64,000 nt of DNA from Bradyrhizobium sp. CB1015 (lineage in GTDB: Bacteria; Pseudomonadota; Alphaproteobacteria; Rhizobiales; Xanthobacteraceae): the NCBI RefSeq assembly GCF_025200925.1, contig NZ_CP104174.1, positions 5,146,001-5,210,000 of the forward strand. The letters are read 5' to 3'. Under the pieces are notes generated by a model, which had not been told where the DNA came from, did not search any database, and saw nothing but the letters and a program-made list of their open reading frames with translations. Numbering within the stretch: position 1 is the stretch's first letter; every line of letters starts with the position of its first letter. Both the position numbers and the translations under genes were made by a program. This document shows positions 45,654 to 56,354 of the stretch, one piece after another.

Positions 45654-48386
45654 ATGAAGATGAAATTCGGCAGTCGTCTCTTTGACCAGGTCTTCGTGCG
45701 CAGCGGTCCGATCCGCTGGCTGGTAGTGGGCGGCACGCTGCTGATCGTGGCCATCGCCATAGGCTCGGTCCTGATGGCGCAGAACTTCCGGGAGCGGGCG
45801 CTGCGCAATTCCGGCCGCGAGCTGGAAAACACCGTGCTGCTGCTCGCTCATCATTTCGACCAGCAATTGCAGGATTTCGCCGTCATCCAGAAGGATTTCG
45901 TCGACTACGTCCGCACCACCGGAATTGCGACCGGAGAGGACTATCGCAAGCGCCTCTCGGGTGAGGACGTGCACCGGATGCTGCGGTCGAAGATCGAGGC
46001 GCTGCCCTATATGGGCGGCGTCAACATCATCGACGCTGAAGGCAATCTGGTCAATTCATCGACCGCATGGCCGGCCCCGAAGGTCAATGTCGCCGATCGC
46101 GCCTACTTCCGCACCTTCAAATACGATCCCTATGCGCCTGATGTGCTGATCGAGCCGCTGCACAGCCGCATCTCCGGTGCATGGACCATTCTGGTCGCCC
46201 GCAAGGTCGTCGGGCCACGCGGCGAGTTCCTTGGTGTGGTCGGACGCGGCATCGAGCCCGGCAACTTCGAGAAATTCTTCGCGTCCGTCGTGCTCGGCGA
46301 AGGCGCAACGATCTCGATGCTGCATCGCGACGGCACGCTGCTCGCCCGCTATCCGCATTCCGGCGAATTGATGGGACGAAACTTCAAGACCGGTCCGTTC
46401 GAGCAACAGAGGGTGTTCGGGCTCGATCATTTCGCCGGCCGCTTCAACAGCCCCGTCGACGGTGAGGACCGGCTGGTCTCCTCCCGTGCCCTGCCCCACT
46501 TCCCGATCCTGATGATGGCCACCACGACGCGCGCGGCGGCCCTGGCGGATTGGCGCGAGCAGATCGGCATGCTGATCTCGGTCGCGGTCTCTTCCGCGCT
46601 CGCGATCGCAGGCGTGCTGATTGCCGTCGTGCGCAAGCTGCTCGAGCAGCACCGCCTTTCGCGCGAACGGCTGACGCTGGAAAAGCAGCGACTCGACCGC
46701 GCCGTCAACAACATGACGCAGGGTCTCCTGCTGTTCGACGCCGAGCAGCGGCTCGTGGTCTGCAACCAGCGCTACATCGAGATGTACGGCTTGTCGGCCG
46801 AGGTCGTGAAGCCCGGCTCCAGCTTCCGCGACATCATCGCCCATCGCAAGGCAACCGGCTCGTTCACCGGCGACATCGATGCCTACGTCGCACGCGTCCT
46901 GAAGGACATCCATCTCCGCAACTCCATGGTGGTCGATACCGCCGATGGCCGCTCGATCCACATCCTCAACGAACCGCTCGCGGATGGCGGCTGGGTGGCG
47001 ACCCATGAGGACATCACGGAGCGCCGTCGCATCGAAGAGCGCATCACCCACCTCGCCCATTACGATGCGCTGACGGACCTGCCCAACCGCGCCATGTTCC
47101 ACGAGCATCTGCGGCAGGAGCTGGCCGCGGTCGGCGACGGCGAGCAGATCGCGGTGCATTACATCGACATCGACGAGTTCAAGGGCGTCAACGACGCGCT
47201 CGGCCATCTCGTCGGCGACGAGCTGTTGAAATCGGTCGCGGCGAACCTCCGCCGCTGTGCGGGCCCAGCAGACTTCGTGGCGCGCCTAGGCGGCGACGAA
47301 TTCGCCATCGTGCAGGGCGCGGTGACGTCGTTGGATCAGGTCAACGAGCTCGTCGCACGCGTCTTCGACACCATCCGCACGCCGTTCGACTGCATGGGCC
47401 ATCATCTCACCAGCGACGCCAGCATCGGTATCGCGCTCGCGCCGGACCACGGCACGGCGCTCGACCAGATCCTGAAGAATGCGGACATGGCAATGTACGC
47501 GGCCAAGTCCGCCGGACGCCGCACCTACCGCTTCTTCGAGCCGGACATGGACGCCAAGGTCCGCGAACGCCGCCAGCTCGAGGGCGACCTGCGTCACGCC
47601 ATCGCGCAAGGAGGGCGCGAAGGCGGGCTCGAGGTCTATTACCAGCCCTGCCTCGGCCTGAAGGACGACCGCATCACCGGCTGCGAGGCGTTGGTGCGCT
47701 GGCGCCATCCCGAGCGCGGCTGGGTCTCGCCGGCCGATTTCATCCCGATCGCCGAAGACACCGGCCTGATCAACGAGATCGGCGAATGGGTGCTGGCGAC
47801 CGCGTGCCGGGACGCGGCAAGCTGGCCCGACGACATCCGCCTCGCCGTCAACGTCTCGCCGGTGCAGTTCAAGAGTGGCACGCTGGCGCTGAAGATCATG
47901 GCGGCGCTCGCCGCCTCGAACCTGCCGGCGAGCCGGCTCGAGCTCGAGATCACCGAGGCGGTCCTGATCCGCGACGACGATGCCGCGCTCGCGATCCTGC
48001 ACCAGCTCCGTGCCATCGGCGTGCGCATCGCGCTCGACGATTTCGGCACTGGCTATTCGTCGCTGAGCTATCTGCACCGCTTCCCGTTCGACAAGATCAA
48101 GATCGACCGCTGCTTCGTCGACGACATCGCCCGCCCCGACGGCTCCGCCAGCATCGTTCAGGCCGTCGTCAACCTGGCGGCCGCCCGCCGCATGACCACG
48201 ACGGCCGAGGGTGTCGAGACCGAGGAGCAGCAGCGCCTGCTGCGTACGCTCGGCTGCTCCGAGATGCAGGGCTACCTGTTCAGCGCCGCCAAGCCCGCCG
48301 GCAAGATGCTGGAGCTGTTCGCGCTGCACCGCAGCCGGCTCGCCCAGCGCGAAGGCAGCGAGAGCCGCCGCCGCGAGGTCGGTTAG
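45654..48386 (+). CDS. Membrane-bound GGDEF-EAL protein (c-di-GMP cyclase/phosphodiesterase)
   Basis: A 910-residue sensor. First membrane helix about 21-41, periplasmic dCache-like sensor about 45-300 (VADRAYFRTFKYDPYAPDVLI is typical), second helix about 308-328, a PAS domain (MTQGLLLFDAEQRLVVCNQRYIEMYGL), GGDEF domain with GGDEF at 546-550 and EAL domain with EAL at 678-680, DDFGTGYSS and KIDRCFVDD loops intact. Both activities are thus possible. I use ATG 45654; a TTG 33 bases earlier has a poorer context. Its stop overlaps the convergent sigma-factor gene by four bases. Confidence 0.92.
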   Translation: MKMKFGSRLFDQVFVRSGPIRWLVVGGTLLIVAIAIGSVLMAQNFRERALRNSGRELENTVLLLAHHFDQQLQDFAVIQKDFVDYVRTTGIATGEDYRKRLSGEDVHRMLRSKIEALPYMGGVNIIDAEGNLVNSSTAWPAPKVNVADRAYFRTFKYDPYAPDVLIEPLHSRISGAWTILVARKVVGPRGEFLGVVGRGIEPGNFEKFFASVVLGEGATISMLHRDGTLLARYPHSGELMGRNFKTGPFEQQRVFGLDHFAGRFNSPVDGEDRLVSSRALPHFPILMMATTTRAAALADWREQIGMLISVAVSSALAIAGVLIAVVRKLLEQHRLSRERLTLEKQRLDRAVNNMTQGLLLFDAEQRLVVCNQRYIEMYGLSAEVVKPGSSFRDIIAHRKATGSFTGDIDAYVARVLKDIHLRNSMVVDTADGRSIHILNEPLADGGWVATHEDITERRRIEERITHLAHYDALTDLPNRAMFHEHLRQELAAVGDGEQIAVHYIDIDEFKGVNDALGHLVGDELLKSVAANLRRCAGPADFVARLGGDEFAIVQGAVTSLDQVNELVARVFDTIRTPFDCMGHHLTSDASIGIALAPDHGTALDQILKNADMAMYAAKSAGRRTYRFFEPDMDAKVRERRQLEGDLRHAIAQGGREGGLEVYYQPCLGLKDDRITGCEALVRWRHPERGWVSPADFIPIAEDTGLINEIGEWVLATACRDAASWPDDIRLAVNVSPVQFKSGTLALKIMAALAASNLPASRLELEITEAVLIRDDDAALAILHQLRAIGVRIALDDFGTGYSSLSYLHRFPFDKIKIDRCFVDDIARPDGSASIVQAVVNLAAARRMTTTAEGVETEEQQRLLRTLGCSEMQGYLFSAAKPAGKMLELFALHRSRLAQREGSESRRREVG

Positions 48387-48994
48387 GTCGGGCCCCGGTT
48401 GTCGGCGCAACGGCACTCCCAGAAGCTTTCCTCCAGGCAAACGACACAGGTTTGCTCGAGGCGCTCCTTCAGCGCTTGTCGTGCCCGGTGGAGCCGAACG
48501 GTCAGGTTATTGACGGTCACGCCGAGGTCGGCGGCAACGAAATCCCGCGGCTCGCCGCCGAGATCGATCCGTCTGATGACTTCGGCATGCTCCGACTTCA
48601 GCAAGGACAGATGGACGTGGAGACACTCGCAGACTACGGCATTCGCCGCGGCGTCCTGCTCGGCCGGCAGCCGATCGTTGAGCTCATGCGGGAACGGCAT
48701 CTCCCGCGTCCTGCTCCTTGATGCCTGGCGGTGGAAGTCGGCGATGGTCGTCGCCAAAACCCTGCTCAGCCAGCCTCGAACCGAGTCCGCGTCGCGAATG
48801 TCGCCGGACCGCTCCAATGCGCGCAACACGAATAGCTGGAGCACCTCTTCCGCTTCGGCACGGCCGCCAAAGCGTCGCTGCAGATAGCTGCGCAGGCGAT
48901 CGTAGCTGCCGACGAGCGCGGCACGAACGACCGTGTCCTGCACGTCCAGGGAGCCGGCTGGCTGTACCGGCAAAGTCTCGTTCGGCGATTTCAT
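48383..48994 (-). CDS. ECF sigma factor with Cys-rich C-terminal tail
   Basis: A 203-residue sigma-70 family factor with region 2 (YDRLRSYLQRRFGGRAEAEE, RGWLSRVLATTIADFHRQ) and region 4 (LLKSEHAEVIRRIDLGG, VAADLGVTVNNLTVRLHRAR). The last 20 residues are CVVCLEESFWECRCAD, a CxxC...CxC cluster beyond region 4 that could bind zinc or sense redox or metal. I start at 48994 because AAGGA lies about 8 bases upstream; the ATG at 49012 lacks a ribosome-binding site. No anti-sigma gene is adjacent, so the tail may itself control activity. It lies at the end of the minus-strand redox gene block and probably directs part of it. Confidence 0.87.
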   Translation of the reverse strand: MKSPNETLPVQPAGSLDVQDTVVRAALVGSYDRLRSYLQRRFGGRAEAEEVLQLFVLRALERSGDIRDADSVRGWLSRVLATTIADFHRQASRSRTREMPFPHELNDRLPAEQDAAANAVVCECLHVHLSLLKSEHAEVIRRIDLGGEPRDFVAADLGVTVNNLTVRLHRARQALKERLEQTCVVCLEESFWECRCADNRGPT

Positions 48995-49306
48995 GACCTG
49001 TCGTCCTTGCATGCCATTGGGCAGATCGCTTCGTTGCAGCGAAATTCGTCAGATCGCGCGCAAGCGCGATCCGCGGAGGCAGCAGCTCCCGAATGAGAGT
49101 CGTGAGCGATCGTCGCTATCGTGCACGCGCGGCGACCTCGCCTTGGCGCGAGCCAATGATCGCCCTGTCGACGTTCTTCCGCTCAACGCGCAGCGTCACG
49201 CAAGCGCCTGGCGCATCGCCATCATCCGCCGGGTACGGCACCCGTCACAGACGTGTCGATCCGCGCTCGGACCTGGAGCAACGCGGTACGATCTTCGGGA
49301 GCTATC
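48995..49306. other. Gene-poor stretch upstream of the ECF sigma gene
   Basis: This 312-base region lies between the secreted Cys/His protein and the sigma gene, both on the minus strand. Short frames exist on both strands, but none has a ribosome-binding site, domain or membrane helix, and in particular no anti-sigma factor is seen. It should hold the sigma-factor promoter. I identified no clear ECF-type GGAAC/CGTT pair. Confidence 0.4.
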
Positions 49307-49702
49307 TCAGGCGATAGGGGGCCGATAGTGGCGGCGGAACGCGCCTTCCTCGCCGATCACGTCCGGCTGCGCTTCGCAGCGCGAATGCGGCGACACGAAC
49401 TCCGCGATCCCGGGAGCTTGGGGCGACACCGCGCTGAAGCACAACACCGAGCCACAGCAGGCCGCATGCCGGTCACCGGGCTCGTCCCGGTCGTTGTCAC
49501 AATCTCCGTCTTTTGCAACGTCGTGCGAATGCACCGCCGGTCCGGCATCAATTTGATCGTGCGCATGCGCGGGTTGCTCGCACGGTATCGAAGTGAGGGG
49601 AGCGATCGAGATGGCGAGAGACGGTGTCATCGACGCAAACAGATAGGCGATGGCGACAAGCCATCCCCACCACCGTCGCCTTGGCTTGATCGAGCCAATC
49701 AT
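49307..49702 (-). CDS. Small secreted Cys/His-rich protein
   Basis: A 131-residue protein starting MIGSIKPRRRWWGWLVAIAYLF with a signal peptide ending near ASMTPSLA. The mature part is rich in His, Asp and Cys (HAHDQIDAGPAVHSHDVAKDGDCDND, HAACCGSVLCF). This recalls the DUF2946-type secreted proteins found with copper and ECF genes, but I cannot confirm the family. A sigma-70-like promoter lies right upstream (49728-49756). It is positioned between the cytochrome genes and the sigma gene on the same strand. Confidence 0.6.
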   Translation of the reverse strand: MIGSIKPRRRWWGWLVAIAYLFASMTPSLAISIAPLTSIPCEQPAHAHDQIDAGPAVHSHDVAKDGDCDNDRDEPGDRHAACCGSVLCFSAVSPQAPGIAEFVSPHSRCEAQPDVIGEEGAFRRHYRPPIA

Positions 49703-49727
49703 TCCCGCACCGCTGCTTACCTTGGAA

Positions 49728-49756
49728 AATATAACTCTGGTTGTATCATAGGCCAA
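49728..49756 (-). promoter_or_regulatory. Sigma-70-like promoter of the secreted Cys/His protein gene
   Basis: On the minus strand TTGGCC and TATATT are separated by exactly 17 bases, and the -10 lies about 25 bases before the ATG at 49702. The spacing is ideal, and the -10 matches five of six consensus bases. Transcription would start near 49720, giving a short leader. Confidence 0.55.
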
Positions 49757-49925
49757 CAGAAAACGGCGCATGCCGAGCCAGTCATGTGGGACCGACCTCG
49801 CGCCGCACGGAATTTGTCGGCTTCGGCAAAGACACCCGCCTCGAGACGGCCCATTGTAAAGCAGACCAAGAAATATTTCCGCTGGCCTTGTAATGTTGGA
49901 AGCCCACAAGCGTCGCCATCAACCA

Positions 49926-50702
49926 TCAATGGTGCTTCATCCAGCCGACGTTCTTGATGCTATTGAACGAGTCCGTCATGTGGCACAGAAAGCATTGATC
50001 GACCGATGCGTGCTCCTGTCCCGCGATCATCCGATCCATCATGAAATGACCCATATAGTGGCTCGGCGGCGCCTGATGGCATTGGGCGCAGTCCTTCGAA
50101 GTTGGCGACGGATGCAGGAAGCCCACGATTTTCCAGGACGCCAGCGCATGGCAATCGGCGCATTCCCGTCCAAACAATCCGCGGTGCGGCTCCCGGTTGC
50201 TGTGGCAGCTGGCGCAATCGAGCGCGGCCTTTTCGGGCCAGTCGGACTTTGGCAGGCCCAGAAACTCCGTCAGATCGGCTCTCAGTTGATCGACCGCGGT
50301 CCGCTCGAACACCCTATTGCCGGAAGCCGCCATCGTGACTTGCAGCAACGACGCATGGTTCATCCGGATCGGCCGCAAGTCGCCGGCGTGCTCGCGATGG
50401 CAACCGGAACATTGACCGCCCACGACGGCATGAAACGCCGTCGATTGCTTGGCAAGATCCGCGGCCGAAGGCGCATGACACGTGATACAGGCGGCTGCCT
50501 CGACGCCTTTGACCGGCGTATGGCAGCTCTCGCATCTGTCGGACAGAAATGCATGCTTGCCGGACAGCGGCCCGGGATTGACGAGCCTTGTCCAGCCCGG
50601 GACGAGCCCAGGGCTGCCTCGGTACAGGGCAATCGACGCGGCCGCCGCACTTGCGACCGCCAGGGTCGCGACCACGACGTAAAGCAGGCCCCGGACGGTC
50701 AC
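49926..50702 (-). CDS. Membrane-anchored heptaheme cytochrome c
   Basis: A 258-residue protein with an N-terminal membrane anchor or uncleaved signal (about 4-27, LLYVVVATLAVASAAAASIAL) and seven CxxCH heme-c motifs: CESCH, CITCH, CSGCH, CASCH, CADCH, CAQCH and CFLCH. Extra histidines (HREH, HRGLF, HYMGHF) can serve as distal ligands. The spacing resembles the cytochrome c3/c7-like, NapC-independent families, but no close assignment was made. GTG at 50702 overlaps the stop of the cytochrome b gene (GTGA), so both are co-translated. It should carry electrons through the periplasm. Confidence 0.85.
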   Translation of the reverse strand: MTVRGLLYVVVATLAVASAAAASIALYRGSPGLVPGWTRLVNPGPLSGKHAFLSDRCESCHTPVKGVEAAACITCHAPSAADLAKQSTAFHAVVGGQCSGCHREHAGDLRPIRMNHASLLQVTMAASGNRVFERTAVDQLRADLTEFLGLPKSDWPEKAALDCASCHSNREPHRGLFGRECADCHALASWKIVGFLHPSPTSKDCAQCHQAPPSHYMGHFMMDRMIAGQEHASVDQCFLCHMTDSFNSIKNVGWMKHH

Positions 50703-51406
50703 GCGAGCCACCGCAGCCCATAATAGACCTCGGTCGCCACGTGCACCGCGAGCAGCGCGTACATGACGATCGCCGCCAGGACGTGCAACCCGATCCACTG
50801 CATGAAGATCGCCTTGACCGCCTCGCCCGATCCGATCGCCGTTTCGAGATCGGAAATGCCGTCGACGAGTTGCAGCAGCGGCACGTCTCGCAACGCCAGT
50901 GCTTGCATCTCGCCCCCGTCTCCCTGATCCCGATCGGGCGACGACATCGCTGCGGCGGTGCGCTCATACGCCGACCTCAAGGTCGCCAGGTGCGACTGCT
51001 GCTGGCGCAGCTGCGTCGCGGTCTGCGGCAGGTAATAGCGACCGACGAATCCGGTGACGACCACGATCAGCATGCTGGTCAGAAGGGCGATCCCGAGCGG
51101 ACTCTGGAGCTTGTGCCCGGTATGCAGCTGCGCGAGGAATGCAGCGACGATCCCGGCATAGGCGTGAAACGCCAGGAGCGTCGGCATCGACACGCATCGC
51201 GTGACGAGAGCCTTGAGCCTCGTGCTGTATTTCGTCATGGGATAGGCGAGAAGCAGGATCATCAGCGCGGCCGCGCTCGCGCCGAGGACGAAGCCGGCGA
51301 GGCTTCCGGCAAAACGGCTGTCGGAATGAAGCAGGAAAGCCGGCGCCAGCAGCAGCAGGGCCGTCAGCACGGCGTCGGCGATCAGGCGCTCTCTCCCGTT
51401 CATCAT
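50699..51406 (-). CDS. Diheme-type membrane cytochrome b-like protein
   Basis: A 235-residue protein with about five membrane helices. One helix carries His residues spaced by 13 residues (FHAYAGIVAAFLAQLH), and the last does too (LHVLAAIVMYALLAVH); two His pairs of this spacing are the usual bis-His ligation of two b hemes across a membrane. A periplasmic or cytoplasmic loop (about 125-190) is polar. Family assignment beyond cytochrome b561/ferric-reductase-like is uncertain. It lies one base after the reductase gene and overlaps the cytochrome c gene, fitting a reductase to b to c electron path. Confidence 0.72.
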   Translation of the reverse strand: MMNGRERLIADAVLTALLLLAPAFLLHSDSRFAGSLAGFVLGASAAALMILLLAYPMTKYSTRLKALVTRCVSMPTLLAFHAYAGIVAAFLAQLHTGHKLQSPLGIALLTSMLIVVVTGFVGRYYLPQTATQLRQQQSHLATLRSAYERTAAAMSSPDRDQGDGGEMQALALRDVPLLQLVDGISDLETAIGSGEAVKAIFMQWIGLHVLAAIVMYALLAVHVATEVYYGLRWLA

Positions 51407-51407
51407 G

Positions 51408-53411
51408 TCAGGCCTCGACGACCAGATCCCCGACCGATCTCGCCTGGCAGGCCAGGATGAGACCGTTCGCCTTGTCCTCCGCGGTCAGGGCGTCCTGAAC
51501 CTCCATCGTCACGTTGCCTTGCAACAGATGCGTCTTGCAGACGCCGCAGACCCCTGCCCTGCAGGAATAGTCGATCGCAACGCCGGCGCTCTCGGCAACC
51601 TCCAGCACGCTCTTGTCCGGCGGCAGCGCCGCCACCTTGCCGGATTTGGCGAAGCGAATAGTCGCCGTTGCCGGGCCGATTGGCGCGGCTCCTCGGTTGC
51701 CCGCTTCTCCTTCCGCCATCTGCGCGTCGCTGGCGGCCTTGCCGGGCGGTGGCACGGCGCCGCGGGCCGGCCCGAAGGCTTCGGTCTTGATCTGCTCGCC
51801 CGGAACGCCGAGGCCGATCAGGGTTTTGCGGAGCGCCTCCATCATTCCGGGCGGACCGCACAAATGAACGCGCCGCTTCGCCAGATCCGGCACCGCCTGC
51901 GTGAGGAATTCGGCCGTGATCTGCCCCTCGCGTCCCATCCAGGACGTGCCGGCGGCCCGCATCATCGTGGCCGCGACGTGCAGGTTGTTCATCCTGCGCT
52001 GGAGGTACTCCAATTCGTCGCGGAAGATGAACTGCTCGGTCGTCTGTGCACCGTAGACGAGGTAGATCTGGCCGGGCCAGGCGATGTCCGAGAGATAGCG
52101 GATCGCAGCCATCAGCGGCGTGATGCCGACCCCGCCACCGATCAGGACGACGCTGTCGGCCTCCGTGCCCGTGAACGTAAAGGCGCCGGACGGACCCGTG
52201 ACCTCGACGAGGTCCCCCTCCTTCAGCTGGCCGTGCATGTAGTCGGACAGCAGCCCACCTTCCTGGCGCTTGATCGTGGTCTCGACATAGGCGGTCTGGG
52301 CCGCGGACGAGGCGATCGTGTAGGAACGCCTGACCGTCTGTCCGTCAATCTCGATGGCATAGGTCAGGAACTGCCCGGGCAGGAACGTAAACGGAATCGC
52401 ACCCCCCTCCGCCGCCTGCAGACGGAAGGTCTTCACGTCAGGCGTCTCCCGATAGATCGCGCAGACCCTCAGCTTGCCCTTCCAGGGGCCGCTCGCCGCA
52501 CCGCGCGGCACTCGGCGGTCTGTATCCCTGAAAGCCGTCGTTCCGCCGCTGTCGTTCGGCCGGCCGGCGGCTGGCGTGGTTACAACTGGCGTGGTTACCA
52601 CTGACGTGACCGCAGCCGGAGCCACCGCCACGCGGGTCAGCCGGTCGACGAGCGCGTTCGCCCGGCGCATGCGCGCGACGTAAATGGCGAGCATCCCCAC
52701 CGAGAACAGCGCCAGCAGCGCCATGGTGGTGACGTGAAACCAGGAGATTCCGGTCGTGCCGTCATCGGCATCCATGGAGCTTCGGGCAGGCAGCAGGTTC
52801 ATCTGCGACTTGAACCAGGCCTGCGCGATCTGCTGCGGCGGCTTGCCTTCGTGAAGCGAACGCACCGCGACCACGCCGCTCTGGACCGCGTTCAGGGACT
52901 CGCGAAGCCGGCGCGAGGCCTGATCCGCGGCAACGATGTCGCCGCCGGCGATGGCGTGCCGCAGGTCCATCTCGGCATCCGCCAGGCGATCGGCCTCGGC
53001 GCTGATCCGCGCGCGCGCCTGGCTCTCCAGGCTGCTCCTCTGCTCGGCGGACAGCGCCGGCATCTCCATCAATGCCGGATAGAACGCCTTGCGCGGCCGG
53101 CCCATCATGCCGTCCATTCCACTCATCATTCCGGCCGACGAAGCGCCGGGCGGCCCGCCAGCCGCGCGCCCATCGCTCGGACCTGCCGATCCCTCCGGCT
53201 TCAGCTTCGTCTCGCCGCCGGCTCCGGCGGGATGGTGCGCCGCGTGATCGCCCTCAGCCTCCGCAACCTGCCAGCGCTGGGCGAACCTTTCGACGGCAGG
53301 CATTGCGCCGCGGCTGACGTCGGATGCCGGCGCGGCCATCGCGGCGAGCTGGCTCGCCAGAATGCCCAGCGCAAGCAGGCCGAAGCGACGTCGAAGGGAC
53401 GGACCGGACAT
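51408..53411 (-). CDS. Membrane-anchored FAD/NAD(P)/[2Fe-2S] reductase with periplasmic Met/His-rich domain
   Basis: A 667-residue fusion. Signal peptide about 1-27; periplasmic helical segment about 28-222 with a His/Met-rich part (GDHAAHHPAG, MMSGMDGMMG near 95-103) and an LSAEQR motif recalling LTXXQ metal proteins; one membrane helix about 224-246; a Val/Thr-rich linker; an FNR-type FAD domain (PGQFLTYAIEIDG, RRSYTIASS); an NAD(P) domain (GGGVGITPLMAA, HLCGPPGMMEAL); and a plant-type [2Fe-2S] ferredoxin with Cys617, Cys622, Cys625 and Cys655. Toluene-dioxygenase-like reductases have the last three parts but not the membrane and periplasmic portions. It would take electrons from cytosolic NAD(P)H to the adjacent cytochrome b. 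Confidence 0.85.
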   Translation of the reverse strand: MSGPSLRRRFGLLALGILASQLAAMAAPASDVSRGAMPAVERFAQRWQVAEAEGDHAAHHPAGAGGETKLKPEGSAGPSDGRAAGGPPGASSAGMMSGMDGMMGRPRKAFYPALMEMPALSAEQRSSLESQARARISAEADRLADAEMDLRHAIAGGDIVAADQASRRLRESLNAVQSGVVAVRSLHEGKPPQQIAQAWFKSQMNLLPARSSMDADDGTTGISWFHVTTMALLALFSVGMLAIYVARMRRANALVDRLTRVAVAPAAVTSVVTTPVVTTPAAGRPNDSGGTTAFRDTDRRVPRGAASGPWKGKLRVCAIYRETPDVKTFRLQAAEGGAIPFTFLPGQFLTYAIEIDGQTVRRSYTIASSAAQTAYVETTIKRQEGGLLSDYMHGQLKEGDLVEVTGPSGAFTFTGTEADSVVLIGGGVGITPLMAAIRYLSDIAWPGQIYLVYGAQTTEQFIFRDELEYLQRRMNNLHVAATMMRAAGTSWMGREGQITAEFLTQAVPDLAKRRVHLCGPPGMMEALRKTLIGLGVPGEQIKTEAFGPARGAVPPPGKAASDAQMAEGEAGNRGAAPIGPATATIRFAKSGKVAALPPDKSVLEVAESAGVAIDYSCRAGVCGVCKTHLLQGNVTMEVQDALTAEDKANGLILACQARSVGDLVVEA

Positions 53412-53433
53412 GATCTTGCGTTCACATCGGCGG

Positions 53434-54141
53434 TCAGAACGATGCGATCAGAGGCAGCAGGATCGTATCGGCGGTCTGCTTCTGACTTTCGTTCAGCGAG
53501 GCGTAGAGCCGCGTGAAAGCCAGGCGAGCCGACTTGATCGCCTCCAGACGCTCGGACAAGTGTCGCTCATAGTGCTCCAGACGATCCGCACTGCCGAGCC
53601 TGTCGTCCATGACGAGCATCTTGCGCGCTTCCAAGAGGTGCTGCCGGCTCGACCGCAAAGCATCCGCGACGCTGTTCCAGTCCGCACTCTGCTTGTCGCT
53701 GATCTGCAGCTCCGCCTTCAGGAAAGCGATCCGCCCTTCGAGCCGCTCGGTCACATCCGCCGGACCGCTCATTGCGCCACTGCCGCCGGATGAGCTCATC
53801 TGGCCGCGCATCATCTTCTCCATCATCTGCATCATCATCGGCATCATCTGCATCATGCCGGAGTTCTCCTGGCAGCCGGCACCCTGGCAGTCCCGCATCT
53901 GGCCTTGCGGCGACATCTTCATCTTGTCGTCGTTCATCCGGCCGCCGCCCATGCTCTGAGATTGCCCTGCCGGCTGGCCCATGTTCATCTTGCTGCCGGA
54001 ATCCGAGGGGTCGGGCATCTTCATCTTGTCGTCGTCCATCATCGCGATCTGAGCAGGACCGGCGGAATATGCCGGCGCAACCGGCCCCAGGACGAGCACG
54101 GCGAATGTAGCTGCGCTCATGACGAAATTTCTCGAGTTCAT
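53434..54141 (-). CDS. Met-rich LTXXQ-family periplasmic protein (Spy/CpxP-like)
   Basis: A 235-residue exported protein. I use ATG 54141 because GGAG is 7 bases upstream; the ATG at 54147 is too close. Signal peptide about 1-26 (FVMSAATFAVLVLGPVAPAYS). Then a Met/Asp/Lys-rich region with repeated DDKMKM motifs, and a run of MMQMMPMMMQMMEKMMRG. The C-terminal half is helical with two LTXXQ-like motifs (LQISDKQSADW and SLNESQKQTAD), the Spy/CpxP signature. Met clusters suggest copper(I) binding. The gene lies 22 bases before the reductase gene. Confidence 0.82.
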   Translation of the reverse strand: MNSRNFVMSAATFAVLVLGPVAPAYSAGPAQIAMMDDDKMKMPDPSDSGSKMNMGQPAGQSQSMGGGRMNDDKMKMSPQGQMRDCQGAGCQENSGMMQMMPMMMQMMEKMMRGQMSSSGGSGAMSGPADVTERLEGRIAFLKAELQISDKQSADWNSVADALRSSRQHLLEARKMLVMDDRLGSADRLEHYERHLSERLEAIKSARLAFTRLYASLNESQKQTADTILLPLIASF

Positions 54142-54253
54142 GTTCATTCTCCAGGTTTGGTCCGGATGATTGTCTGCTCGCCGACGACGAGGCAGCGCGC
54201 GGCGGGTCGAGCCAAATAGACGCAAGGCGCCCGCAACTCTTACGGCGGACATG

Positions 54254-54664
54254 TCAGAGGCCGCGCGCAGCATCGCCCGCCTCCCTGTCATGCCTTCGCC
54301 ACGGCCATCGCCCCTCGATTTCAATCTGAAGCGAGAAGCTCAGGAACGTACGGATCACGATGATCAATGCCAGGACGGCAAGCCGGTCCAACGACGGCAC
54401 GATCGCGACCATCCCGATGATGTCGGCGGCGATCAGGAATTCGAGGCCGAGCAGGATGCCGCGACCAAGATTGGCGCGATAGGACCGGAATGCGTCGGCA
54501 GGCGCACCGCCGCGCATCTCGTTCAACGACCAGACCGTCGCAGCAAGCACCCCGCAGACGATCACCACCACCCCGAGCAGCTCGATCGTCGAAGCGATCC
54601 AGTGCAGGCCGTGCAGGACGAAGCCTCGAATCTCCTCCGTGAAGATGGGCTCGGAATTGATCAT
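54254..54664 (-). CDS. DUF1622-like small membrane protein
   Basis: A 136-residue protein with three membrane helices (WIASTIELLGVVVIVCGVLAA, ILLGLEFLIAADIIGMVAIV, LAVLALIIVIRTFLSFSL) and a C-terminal IEIEGRWPW segment. This is the DUF1622 pattern as I recall it. ATG 54664 overlaps the opgC-like stop as ATGA. Function unknown; it could be a channel-like or scaffold component of the envelope block. Confidence 0.8.
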   Translation of the reverse strand: MINSEPIFTEEIRGFVLHGLHWIASTIELLGVVVIVCGVLAATVWSLNEMRGGAPADAFRSYRANLGRGILLGLEFLIAADIIGMVAIVPSLDRLAVLALIIVIRTFLSFSLQIEIEGRWPWRRHDREAGDAARGL

Positions 54665-55986
54665 CCGCCCGCCTCCTGGGCCGAGCGGCTCCTGTCGACG
54701 CCCTTCGACCACGTCCGGTAATAGGCGATGATCGTCATGATCCACAAACCCGCTGCACCGACGATCAGCTGGGCCCATATTCCCTCGGATCCGGACTCGA
54801 GCACGAAATGCGCGACGAAGGACAGAAACAGGCCGACGCAGAACACCGACAACGATTGCTGGCCGCATCTGATCAAGGGTTGCAGCAGGGGCGACTTGAG
54901 GCCTGGCCAGTCGATCGGGATGAGCCGGACGACGATGAGCATCAGGCTCACCAGATGGATGAGGCGATAGGGACCGAGATTGGTCTTGTCGTTCGGAATG
55001 AAGGTCGCGGCGAGCCCTTCAGGGACGAAATCGCGCAGTCCCGGGATTCGTTCGGCCAGAGTCACGACCAGCGCAAAGAGCAGGACGGCACAGCTGAAGG
55101 CGAGCGCCGTGCGTGACGACAGCAGCCAGCGGCTCGCCGTCGCCCCTCCCAAGGCCAGCCAGGCGCCGAACACGAACAGCAATTGCCAGGCGAACGGATT
55201 GAAGTACCAGACCCCAGCCGGATAGGACGGCAAATTCCATCCGTAATGGCGGGCCGCAACATACAGACCGAGCGAGCCGATCATCACCGCATTGCGCCAG
55301 CGCAGCATGACCCACAGCACGACGGGAAACGCGGCCATCAGCACGATATAGAGCGGCAGCACGTCGAGATTGAGCGGCTTGAACTTGAGGATCAGGCCCT
55401 GTGCGAGCGTCTCGACCGGAAAATTCATCAGCGGCGCGACGTTGAACTGATCCATCAGATGAAGATCGTCGTACCTGTGCGCGACGTAGTGCACGGCGGT
55501 GAGATAGACGAAGAACAACAGCAGGTGAGCGACATAGAGCTGCCACACGCGCCGCAGCAGCCGGGTTGCTCCGATGACGAAGCCACGCTCCATCATCATC
55601 GCGCCGAACACGAAGGTCGCGGTATAGCCGGAGATCAGCACGAACAGATCGGCCCCGTCGCTGAAGCCGTAATTGCGCGTCGTGAACCAGACCAGCGCGG
55701 AATCCGGAATGTGCCCGAGAAAGATCAGCCAATTGGCGAGGCCGCGAAACAGATCGAGACGCAGATCGCGCCGCGGCACGACCAGCACGGATCTGATCGT
55801 CATCGTCTCCCAGAGCCGACGACGCAACAGCAGCACAGCTTGCAGCGGCTGCGCGGGGTTCGAAACAGTCTCTTCGGCCAACGGCGGGTTCTCCATCCTG
55901 ACGATCGGCATTCGGATCGCAACCTCGTCGCCGCTCATTCGCACCGGCACGCTAAGTTGCGTCATCGTGGCCGGCTTGACGGACAT
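54661..55986 (-). CDS. OpgC-family membrane acyltransferase
   Basis: A 441-residue protein with about ten membrane helices. It matches OpgC, which adds succinyl groups to osmoregulated periplasmic glucans: RDLRLDLFRGLANWLIFLGHIPD, RNYGFSDGADLFVLISGYTA, and a C-terminal helix rich in Phe/Val. A cytoplasmic N-terminal stretch (about 1-75) is polar. The start is uncertain: I use ATG 55986, but TTG 56028 or a later Met are possible. It is coupled to the DUF1622-like gene and is the first gene of the minus-strand block. No opgG/H is nearby. Confidence 0.85.
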   Translation of the reverse strand: MSVKPATMTQLSVPVRMSGDEVAIRMPIVRMENPPLAEETVSNPAQPLQAVLLLRRRLWETMTIRSVLVVPRRDLRLDLFRGLANWLIFLGHIPDSALVWFTTRNYGFSDGADLFVLISGYTATFVFGAMMMERGFVIGATRLLRRVWQLYVAHLLLFFVYLTAVHYVAHRYDDLHLMDQFNVAPLMNFPVETLAQGLILKFKPLNLDVLPLYIVLMAAFPVVLWVMLRWRNAVMIGSLGLYVAARHYGWNLPSYPAGVWYFNPFAWQLLFVFGAWLALGGATASRWLLSSRTALAFSCAVLLFALVVTLAERIPGLRDFVPEGLAATFIPNDKTNLGPYRLIHLVSLMLIVVRLIPIDWPGLKSPLLQPLIRCGQQSLSVFCVGLFLSFVAHFVLESGSEGIWAQLIVGAAGLWIMTIIAYYRTWSKGVDRSRSAQEAGG

Positions 55987-56354
55987 CAAGCTCGATCGAC
56001 GCACCAGCCAAATCTTTTTGTAGTTCAATCGCGTAATGAATCACGACGCTTCTCGTCCTCGAGCGGAAGGTCACCTGCCAGCGACTGCTATGGTCCGCCC
56101 GGCCACATGATCGAGGGCGTCGCGCGAGGCTCGCGATTTGGCGCGTCGGCTCAATATTTTTCTCTGTAAGAAGATCGTCGCTTCGCGTCGCCTGTAGTAA
56201 TTCGACGCGTCCTGCATCCAAGCACGCAGGCATGCGCATCGGCATGTTGATCTTGCTCAACCCGAACGATCACGGTCCGGGTTTGGTTGCGGCTCGATCA
56301 AGCCACCGGGACTTGATTGGCACCAACTCGACAATATCGAACAGGAGAAACCAA
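55987..56354. other. Divergent region between opgC-like gene and His-rich repeat gene
   Basis: This 368-base gap separates two divergent starts. It is AT-rich around 56150-56170 (CAATATTTTTCTCTGTAAG). A FixK-type box sits at 56247-56260. I found no further gene, although the minus-strand promoter of the redox block must be here. Confidence 0.5.
56247..56260 (+). promoter_or_regulatory. FixK/FNR-type box upstream of the His-rich repeat gene
   Basis: TTGATCTTGCTCAA matches the bradyrhizobial FixK2 pattern TTG(A/C)-N6-(T/G)CAA exactly. It lies 94 bases before the ATG at 56355. If activation occurs at the usual -40 distance, transcription would start near 56294, leaving a 60-base leader. A chance match cannot be excluded from one site. 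Confidence 0.45.

Follow-up and report, generated by a model that had tools for sequence, protein, structure and literature searches.

The 64,000-nucleotide stretch of Bradyrhizobium sp. CB1015 DNA analysed here (the window; positions 5,146,001 to 5,210,000 of NZ_CP104174.1, a single contig of 8.41 Mb) carries on its minus strand three adjacent genes that encode a FAD and [2Fe-2S] reductase (RED), a membrane cytochrome b (CytB) and a heptaheme cytochrome c (CytC), which together form a module that is widespread, frequent in copper-resistance islands and unnamed in the literature that we found. We tentatively propose that RED-CytB-CytC is a transmembrane complex of copper-stress loci that carries electrons from NAD(P)H to the periplasm, likely reducing Cu(II) or an oxidised copper-handling protein there, an interpretation to which we give slightly less than an even chance. 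The trio lies within a group of eight minus-strand genes (48383-55986), all of which are present with the domains named in the initial annotation; the other five encode an OpgC-type acyltransferase, a DUF1622 protein, an LTXXQ/Spy-type protein, a Cys- and His-containing protein (CysHis) and an extracytoplasmic function (ECF) sigma factor. The nearest named relatives of CytB are from Bradyrhizobium.

A genome scan queried with a CytB alignment alone returned 30 loci, the neighbours of which were then sought by tblastn. RED precedes and CytC follows CytB at all 30, which range from Nitrobacteraceae to Polyangia (a metagenome-assembled genome with ~40% identity), and since CytB was the sole query and yet both partners flank it every time, this contiguity is above chance. 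The trio also occurs in Sphingomonadales, Legionella, Alteromonas, Variovorax and Pontibacter. Plasmid records were matched by the window's CytB (52 records) and by a Sphingobium CytB (49), and from both lists we picked 16 regions for variety rather than at random, covering alpha-, beta- and gammaproteobacteria and Bacteroidota. RED adjoins CytB in each of these regions and is followed in 15 by a seven-CxxCH CytC; in L056 the seven motifs are spread over two frames and RED is annotated as two pieces, and in L057 RED is annotated with a short N-terminus. Plasmid pBBta01 of Bradyrhizobium sp. BTAi1 (L044, 4113-6267, and L035) has three CytB places, with one RED annotated short beside an IS3 transposase.

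The proposal in the initial annotation of a chain from NAD(P)H through membrane b hemes to periplasmic c hemes is thus borne out as a conserved module, its genes adjoining one another far outside Rhizobiales; the functions offered there (reduction of metals, disposal of reductant, anaerobic respiration) are candidates. The robust unit is RED-CytB-CytC, and the view of all eight genes as one block does not hold: at the same 30 loci LTXXQ was matched at 27 (two of these matches span half the length or less, one with 31% identity), OpgC, which is less constant than the trio, at 24, CysHis and ECF each at 20 and DUF1622 at 17, so that OpgC, CysHis and ECF come and go, and conserved non-coding DNA precedes CysHis. 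CytB itself is patchy within the genus, matching in 12 of 98 genomes (11 strongly), and matched in 35 of the 398 genomes sampled from the phylum, seven times strongly and at full length. Distant relatives make up the other 28, of which 23 gave a locus, and every one of these has an adjoining open frame with 4-14 CxxCH motifs. The upstream frame in three of them encodes a FAD/[2Fe-2S] reductase (L075), a Na/H exchanger or a protein of no family (L012 and L089). The three-part plan may be older than the RED-CytB-CytC family and belong to an older superfamily of such chains.

Pfam matches and hydropathy place in RED a hydrophobic segment (~10-28), a Met/His-rich periplasmic domain and a transmembrane (TM) segment (~227-245), followed by FAD, NAD and [2Fe-2S] domains; two weaker hydropathy peaks (261-279 and 419-437) were not counted as TM. 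The HxxHH motif (H56, H59 and H60) is kept in at least 90% of 14 aligned rows, and H226 and M230 are invariant in all 14. Six histidines of CytB (27, 81, 95, 98, 208 and 222) are invariant in a 26-row alignment and include two pairs with 13 residues between, 81/95 and 208/222. The AlphaFold2 model of CytB is helical (mean predicted local distance difference test score, pLDDT, of 77), as also predicted by hydropathy. A Pfam scan of CytB returned a single match, to DUF4405 (23.0 bits against a cut-off of 26.7, hence too low), and no ferric reductase transmembrane domain, which we take to be PF01794. Seven CxxCH motifs are present in all 24 extracted CytC sequences, including that of the window; the open frame at one further strong genome match (L065) has six. 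CytC exceeds the cut-off of the cytochrome c7/c3 profile PF14522 (35.2 against 24.8 bits). Sequence searches of the PDB at E <= 1 gave no related-looking heme protein for CytB, and for CytC only two weak matches, to a tetraheme-type and a 16-heme cytochrome.

FNR-type FAD/NAD domains and plant-type ferredoxin domains pass hydride electrons on singly, and bis-His pairs 13 residues apart hold two hemes across the membrane. A putative electron path through the trio follows from its domains: at the cytosolic face RED would accept electrons from NAD(P)H, move them through FAD and [2Fe-2S] and hand them to an inner heme of CytB (H81/H208), from which they would pass to an outer heme (H95/H222) and on to the heptaheme CytC. 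Positive charges in CytB, at its N-terminus and in loop 59-70, predict that TM3 and TM5 are co-directional, which would put the H81/H208 pair on the inner side of the membrane and H95/H222 on the outer; on this model H27 and H98 would be periplasmic and available for another role. The Met/His-rich parts of RED and LTXXQ may hold or sense metal, the ECF sigma factor would switch on at least the neighbouring genes, and reduction would keep copper as Cu(I), the form used by CusF and by Cus/P-type exporters. We infer the topology, heme pairing, electron direction, sigma control and Cu(II) as acceptor, the last being favoured in view of nearby copper genes, the sigma factor and RED's own metal-type residues.

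In 13 of the 16 plasmid regions the annotation includes copper genes within 12-15 kb of the trio; heavy-metal regulators or pumps and DUF411 are named in Rhizorhabdus (L046) and Methylophaga (L047), and the Pontibacter region has nothing beyond RND efflux genes. In a profile search, 11 of the 16 plasmids have CopB or Cu-oxidase_3 no more than 15 kb from the trio, where random placement predicts 4.1 (Fisher p 0.002 over the 14 plasmid records with a match, the other two having none; distances were taken from the first trio copy where a plasmid has several). Amongst 17 chromosomal copies in 16 genomes, seven are within ~15 kb of a CopB or oxidase gene and one is at 24 kb. At L029, genes for an outer-membrane efflux protein, a multicopper oxidase, a cupredoxin and CusF lie between CytC and ECF, and sequence clustering finds the same four gene clusters in the same order at L023, L027 and L033. 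This TolC-oxidase-cupredoxin-CusF block precedes the ECF gene in three relatives (L027, L029 and L033); at L023 there is no ECF gene within the stretch examined.

The sigma factor also points towards metal. Between its sigma2 and sigma4 matches is a CXC motif (residues 128-130, numbered from the upstream start at 49012), and near its end a C-x2-C-x7-C-x-C motif, both present in 15 of 15 readable rows of an alignment from which five truncated rows were dropped and the partial L020 excluded; its PF04542 match is above the cut-off and PF08281 falls under it (22.0 against 25.7 bits). According to the accessible text of PMC8999054 and PMC3107203, CorE has a CXC linker and a Cys-rich C-terminus and is switched on by Cu(II) and off by Cu(I). 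The ECF protein shares with CorE (former ECF44) this linker and this kind of C-terminus and stands beside copper genes in relatives, the comparison with CorE covering these two features. These features suggest that it is CorE-like, with a predicted response to metal. A different sensor/sigma pair, a periplasmic heavy metal sensor and a sigma factor lacking CXC, is found in a Caulobacter copper island (L059, 4607-5622).

Several observations weigh against the copper interpretation. The nearest CopB or oxidase gene is 61 kb from the trio in Alteromonas, 29 kb in Pontibacter and 21 kb in Glaciecola, and two plasmids have none. Nine of the 17 chromosomal copies lack such a gene nearby, and eight of these nine are from Bradyrhizobium, namely the window's genome and seven others with a CytB 80-94% identical to it. 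The guess at copper in the initial annotation therefore fits many neighbourhoods and the CorE-like features of the sigma factor but not the window's own clade, where the surroundings of the cluster are free of CopB and copper oxidase genes; the genome of the window has no CopB match, and its closest oxidase match lies ~2.2 Mb from the cluster. Since the plasmids are rich in metal genes and are partly close kin, the linkage statistic is moderate. The multicopper oxidases of the same islands catalyse the opposite reaction, and since some islands also carry energy genes, hydrogenase and AdhP among them, the acceptor may be something other than copper. Foldseek returned no match at E <= 0.001 with the AlphaFold2 models of CytB or the RED N-terminus (the latter with a mean pLDDT of 68).

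These energy genes could indicate that the trio is an electron sink, delivering surplus NAD(P)H to periplasmic acceptors (oxygen via multicopper oxidase, peroxide, or protons via hydrogenase) in anoxia or when metals block respiration, with the copper genes as fellow travellers of a survival island. In Glaciecola and Alteromonas a NiFe hydrogenase operon lies one gene from the trio, and in L026 and pBBta01 the distance is ~7-10 kb; AdhP occurs in four plasmid regions, DUF3141 in three loci, G6PD in two and phosphoketolase in one. However, hydrogenase is named in only three and AdhP in four of the 16 plasmid regions against 13 for copper genes, and RED itself keeps Met/His-rich metal-type parts, so that we consider an electron sink rather unlikely. 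Between CytC and the NiFe hydrogenase operon of two Alteromonadaceae plasmids is a gene for a ~407-amino-acid protein (L051, 13488-14711; L052, 13497-14720), the L051 copy of which has no Pfam or NCBIfam match.

It is improbable, in our estimation, that the chain serves periplasmic repair, mending oxidised Met or Cys or re-reducing copper proteins such as CopG (presumably DUF411) rather than free copper: LTXXQ and the RED domains are Met-rich and DUF411 genes occur in five of the 16 plasmid regions, but in the 16 annotated regions, the unnamed proteins of which were not searched for it, no product bears the name methionine sulfoxide reductase. A ferric reductase for iron uptake is very improbable, for although 'iron reductase' is the database name of many CytB homologues, the diheme plan resembles ferric reductases and B. 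japonicum is said in the accessible text of PMC10760861 to have an unidentified reductase of inorganic ferric iron, CytB lacks the ferric-reductase Pfam domain and no iron-uptake gene recurs among the annotated products of the 16 plasmid regions (there is one divalent metal transporter), in which copper genes do recur.

Returning to copper, a more specific form of our proposal, which we regard as possible but doubtful, is that the trio represents a class, as yet without a name, of flavo-heme metalloreductases spanning the bacterial envelope, whose dedicated task in copper-resistance islands would be to reduce Cu(II) in the periplasm and which, together with the neighbouring multicopper oxidase, would set the redox state of copper there. 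Accounts of copper resistance usually centre on efflux, binding and oxidation, to which a complex that is widely shared, often plasmid-borne and often tied to copper islands would, if this is true, add a reductive, energy-consuming arm; such NAD(P)H-driven control of periplasmic copper would be of greatest value under oxygen shortage, when the oxidase cannot act.

DUF1622 is tied to the trio more tightly than CopB or multicopper oxidase. Ten plasmids carry it, nine of them no more than 6.6 kb from a trio copy and the tenth at 39 kb (Fisher p 6e-7). Of the 12 genomes with DUF1622, several of which are close kin and hence non-independent, nine have it within 5.3 kb of a trio copy and the other three have it farther off (14.6 kb, 52.5 kb and on another contig); in 11 of the 12 it is the sole copy. 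Four of the 16 genomes lack it. If the trio is a copper complex, DUF1622 gains a first functional lead. In a FastTree tree of joined alignments, with a root chosen by hand and one deeper node of support 0.26, L023 and L026 group together (0.95) as sister to L024 and the window's clade (each of those two groups having 1.0), with the remaining oxidase-block loci (L027, L029, L033 and L036) branching just outside (0.91). This branching suggests that the oxidase block was lost in the window's clade, and the window's copy looks like a reduced chromosomal version of the module.

The close packing described initially applies to part of the cluster (Table 1): OpgC and DUF1622 overlap by four bases (ATGA), as do CytB and CytC (GTGA), and one base separates RED from CytB, but gaps of ~105 bp between DUF1622 and LTXXQ, 223 bp between CytC and CysHis and ~310 bp between CysHis and ECF argue against a single unit, and the eight genes are probably transcribed as more than one. 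The most likely starts are GTG at 50702 for CytC, 49702 for CysHis (131 amino acids) and 48994 for ECF, the last preferred because reading from the upstream start stops after 3-4 residues in five relatives. CysHis has no family match in Pfam and NCBIfam scans. Conserved non-coding elements, CATTAC...CAAAAAGATTTGG and CTTACAGAGAAAAATATT, precede OpgC (55997-56042 and 56130-56175), and L029 and L033 have resembling elements ~1.2-1.5 kb ahead of their OpgC match. The blocks that precede OpgC and CysHis point to two or more transcription starts, with those before CysHis forming a candidate separate promoter. A gapped-dyad scan, run without a shuffle control, found one weak shared pair. We do not claim a sigma binding site, since among the 15 other loci scanned the pattern from the conserved blocks has few further occurrences and a stricter pattern has no match in the window.

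Table 1. Features of the cluster (window coordinates) and a distant-relative locus (locus coordinates).
Feature	Position	Strand	Evidence
OpgC-type acyltransferase, first gene, variable member	54661..55986	-	PF10129 457 bits; 24/30 loci
DUF1622 protein, three TM segments, tightly linked accessory gene	54254..54664	-	PF07784 85 bits; hydropathy; linkage
LTXXQ/Spy-type periplasmic protein, 12.2% Met	53434..54147	-	PF07813 67 bits; composition; 27/30 loci
RED, 667 amino acids	51408..53411	-	Pfam PF00970, PF00175, PF00111 (FAD, NAD, [2Fe-2S])
CytB, 235 amino acids, five predicted TM segments	50699..51406	-	hydropathy; DUF4405 below cut-off
CytC, membrane-anchored seven-CxxCH c-type cytochrome of c7/c3 kind	49926..50702	-	PF14522 35.2 bits
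CysHis: N-terminal hydrophobic segment, His-containing stretch, CCGSVLC motif	49307..49702	-	alignment
ECF sigma factor, CXC (CEC) and Cys-rich tail CVVC-x7-CRC	48383..48994	-	PF04542 above cut-off
Conserved non-coding block before OpgC	55997..56042	-	14-row alignment
Two conserved non-coding blocks before CysHis, perhaps own promoter region	49703..49900	-	15-row alignment
Distant-relative locus L075	353-3187		

Eukaryotic flavo-heme metalloreductases of the Fre/NOX type use NAD(P)H, FAD and two membrane hemes and reduce metal outside the cell. The trio resembles this plan, including the two hemes on 13-spaced His pairs, but its flavin part is on a separate polypeptide (RED) with an extra [2Fe-2S] and its own periplasmic metal-type domain, and a heptaheme CytC is added. 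Of the features that define the ferric reductase/NOX superfamily, CytB has the His pairs in two TM helices but lacks the Pfam domain and FAD/NAD on the same polypeptide. The OmcA/MtrC respiratory cytochromes are likewise multiheme c-type proteins, but CytC scores 23.9 bits against their cut-off of 209.3 and has seven rather than ten CxxCH, which places it outside that family. The accessible text of PMC7558416 describes eukaryotic heme reductases that reduce extracellular Cu(II) with NADPH or ascorbate, and also CcoG, a bacterial cupric reductase that is membrane-bound but, unlike the trio, has no heme relay. In B. japonicum, of the same genus as the window, the accessible text of PMC10760861 describes FsrB, a periplasmic siderophore-iron reductase, and its reference list titles FrcB a diheme ferric reductase; both, unlike the trio as we read it, serve iron, and the likeness is by description, not sequence. 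Alteromonas islands with hydrogenase and metal genes have been reported (PMC8478169; PMC4781885), and the word cytochrome is absent from the accessible main text of both; none of six terms looked for in PMC9948745 occurs there. Our literature search, which most subscription papers lay beyond, found no paper that describes or names the trio. The parts of RED-CytB-CytC are of known kinds; their combination is new.

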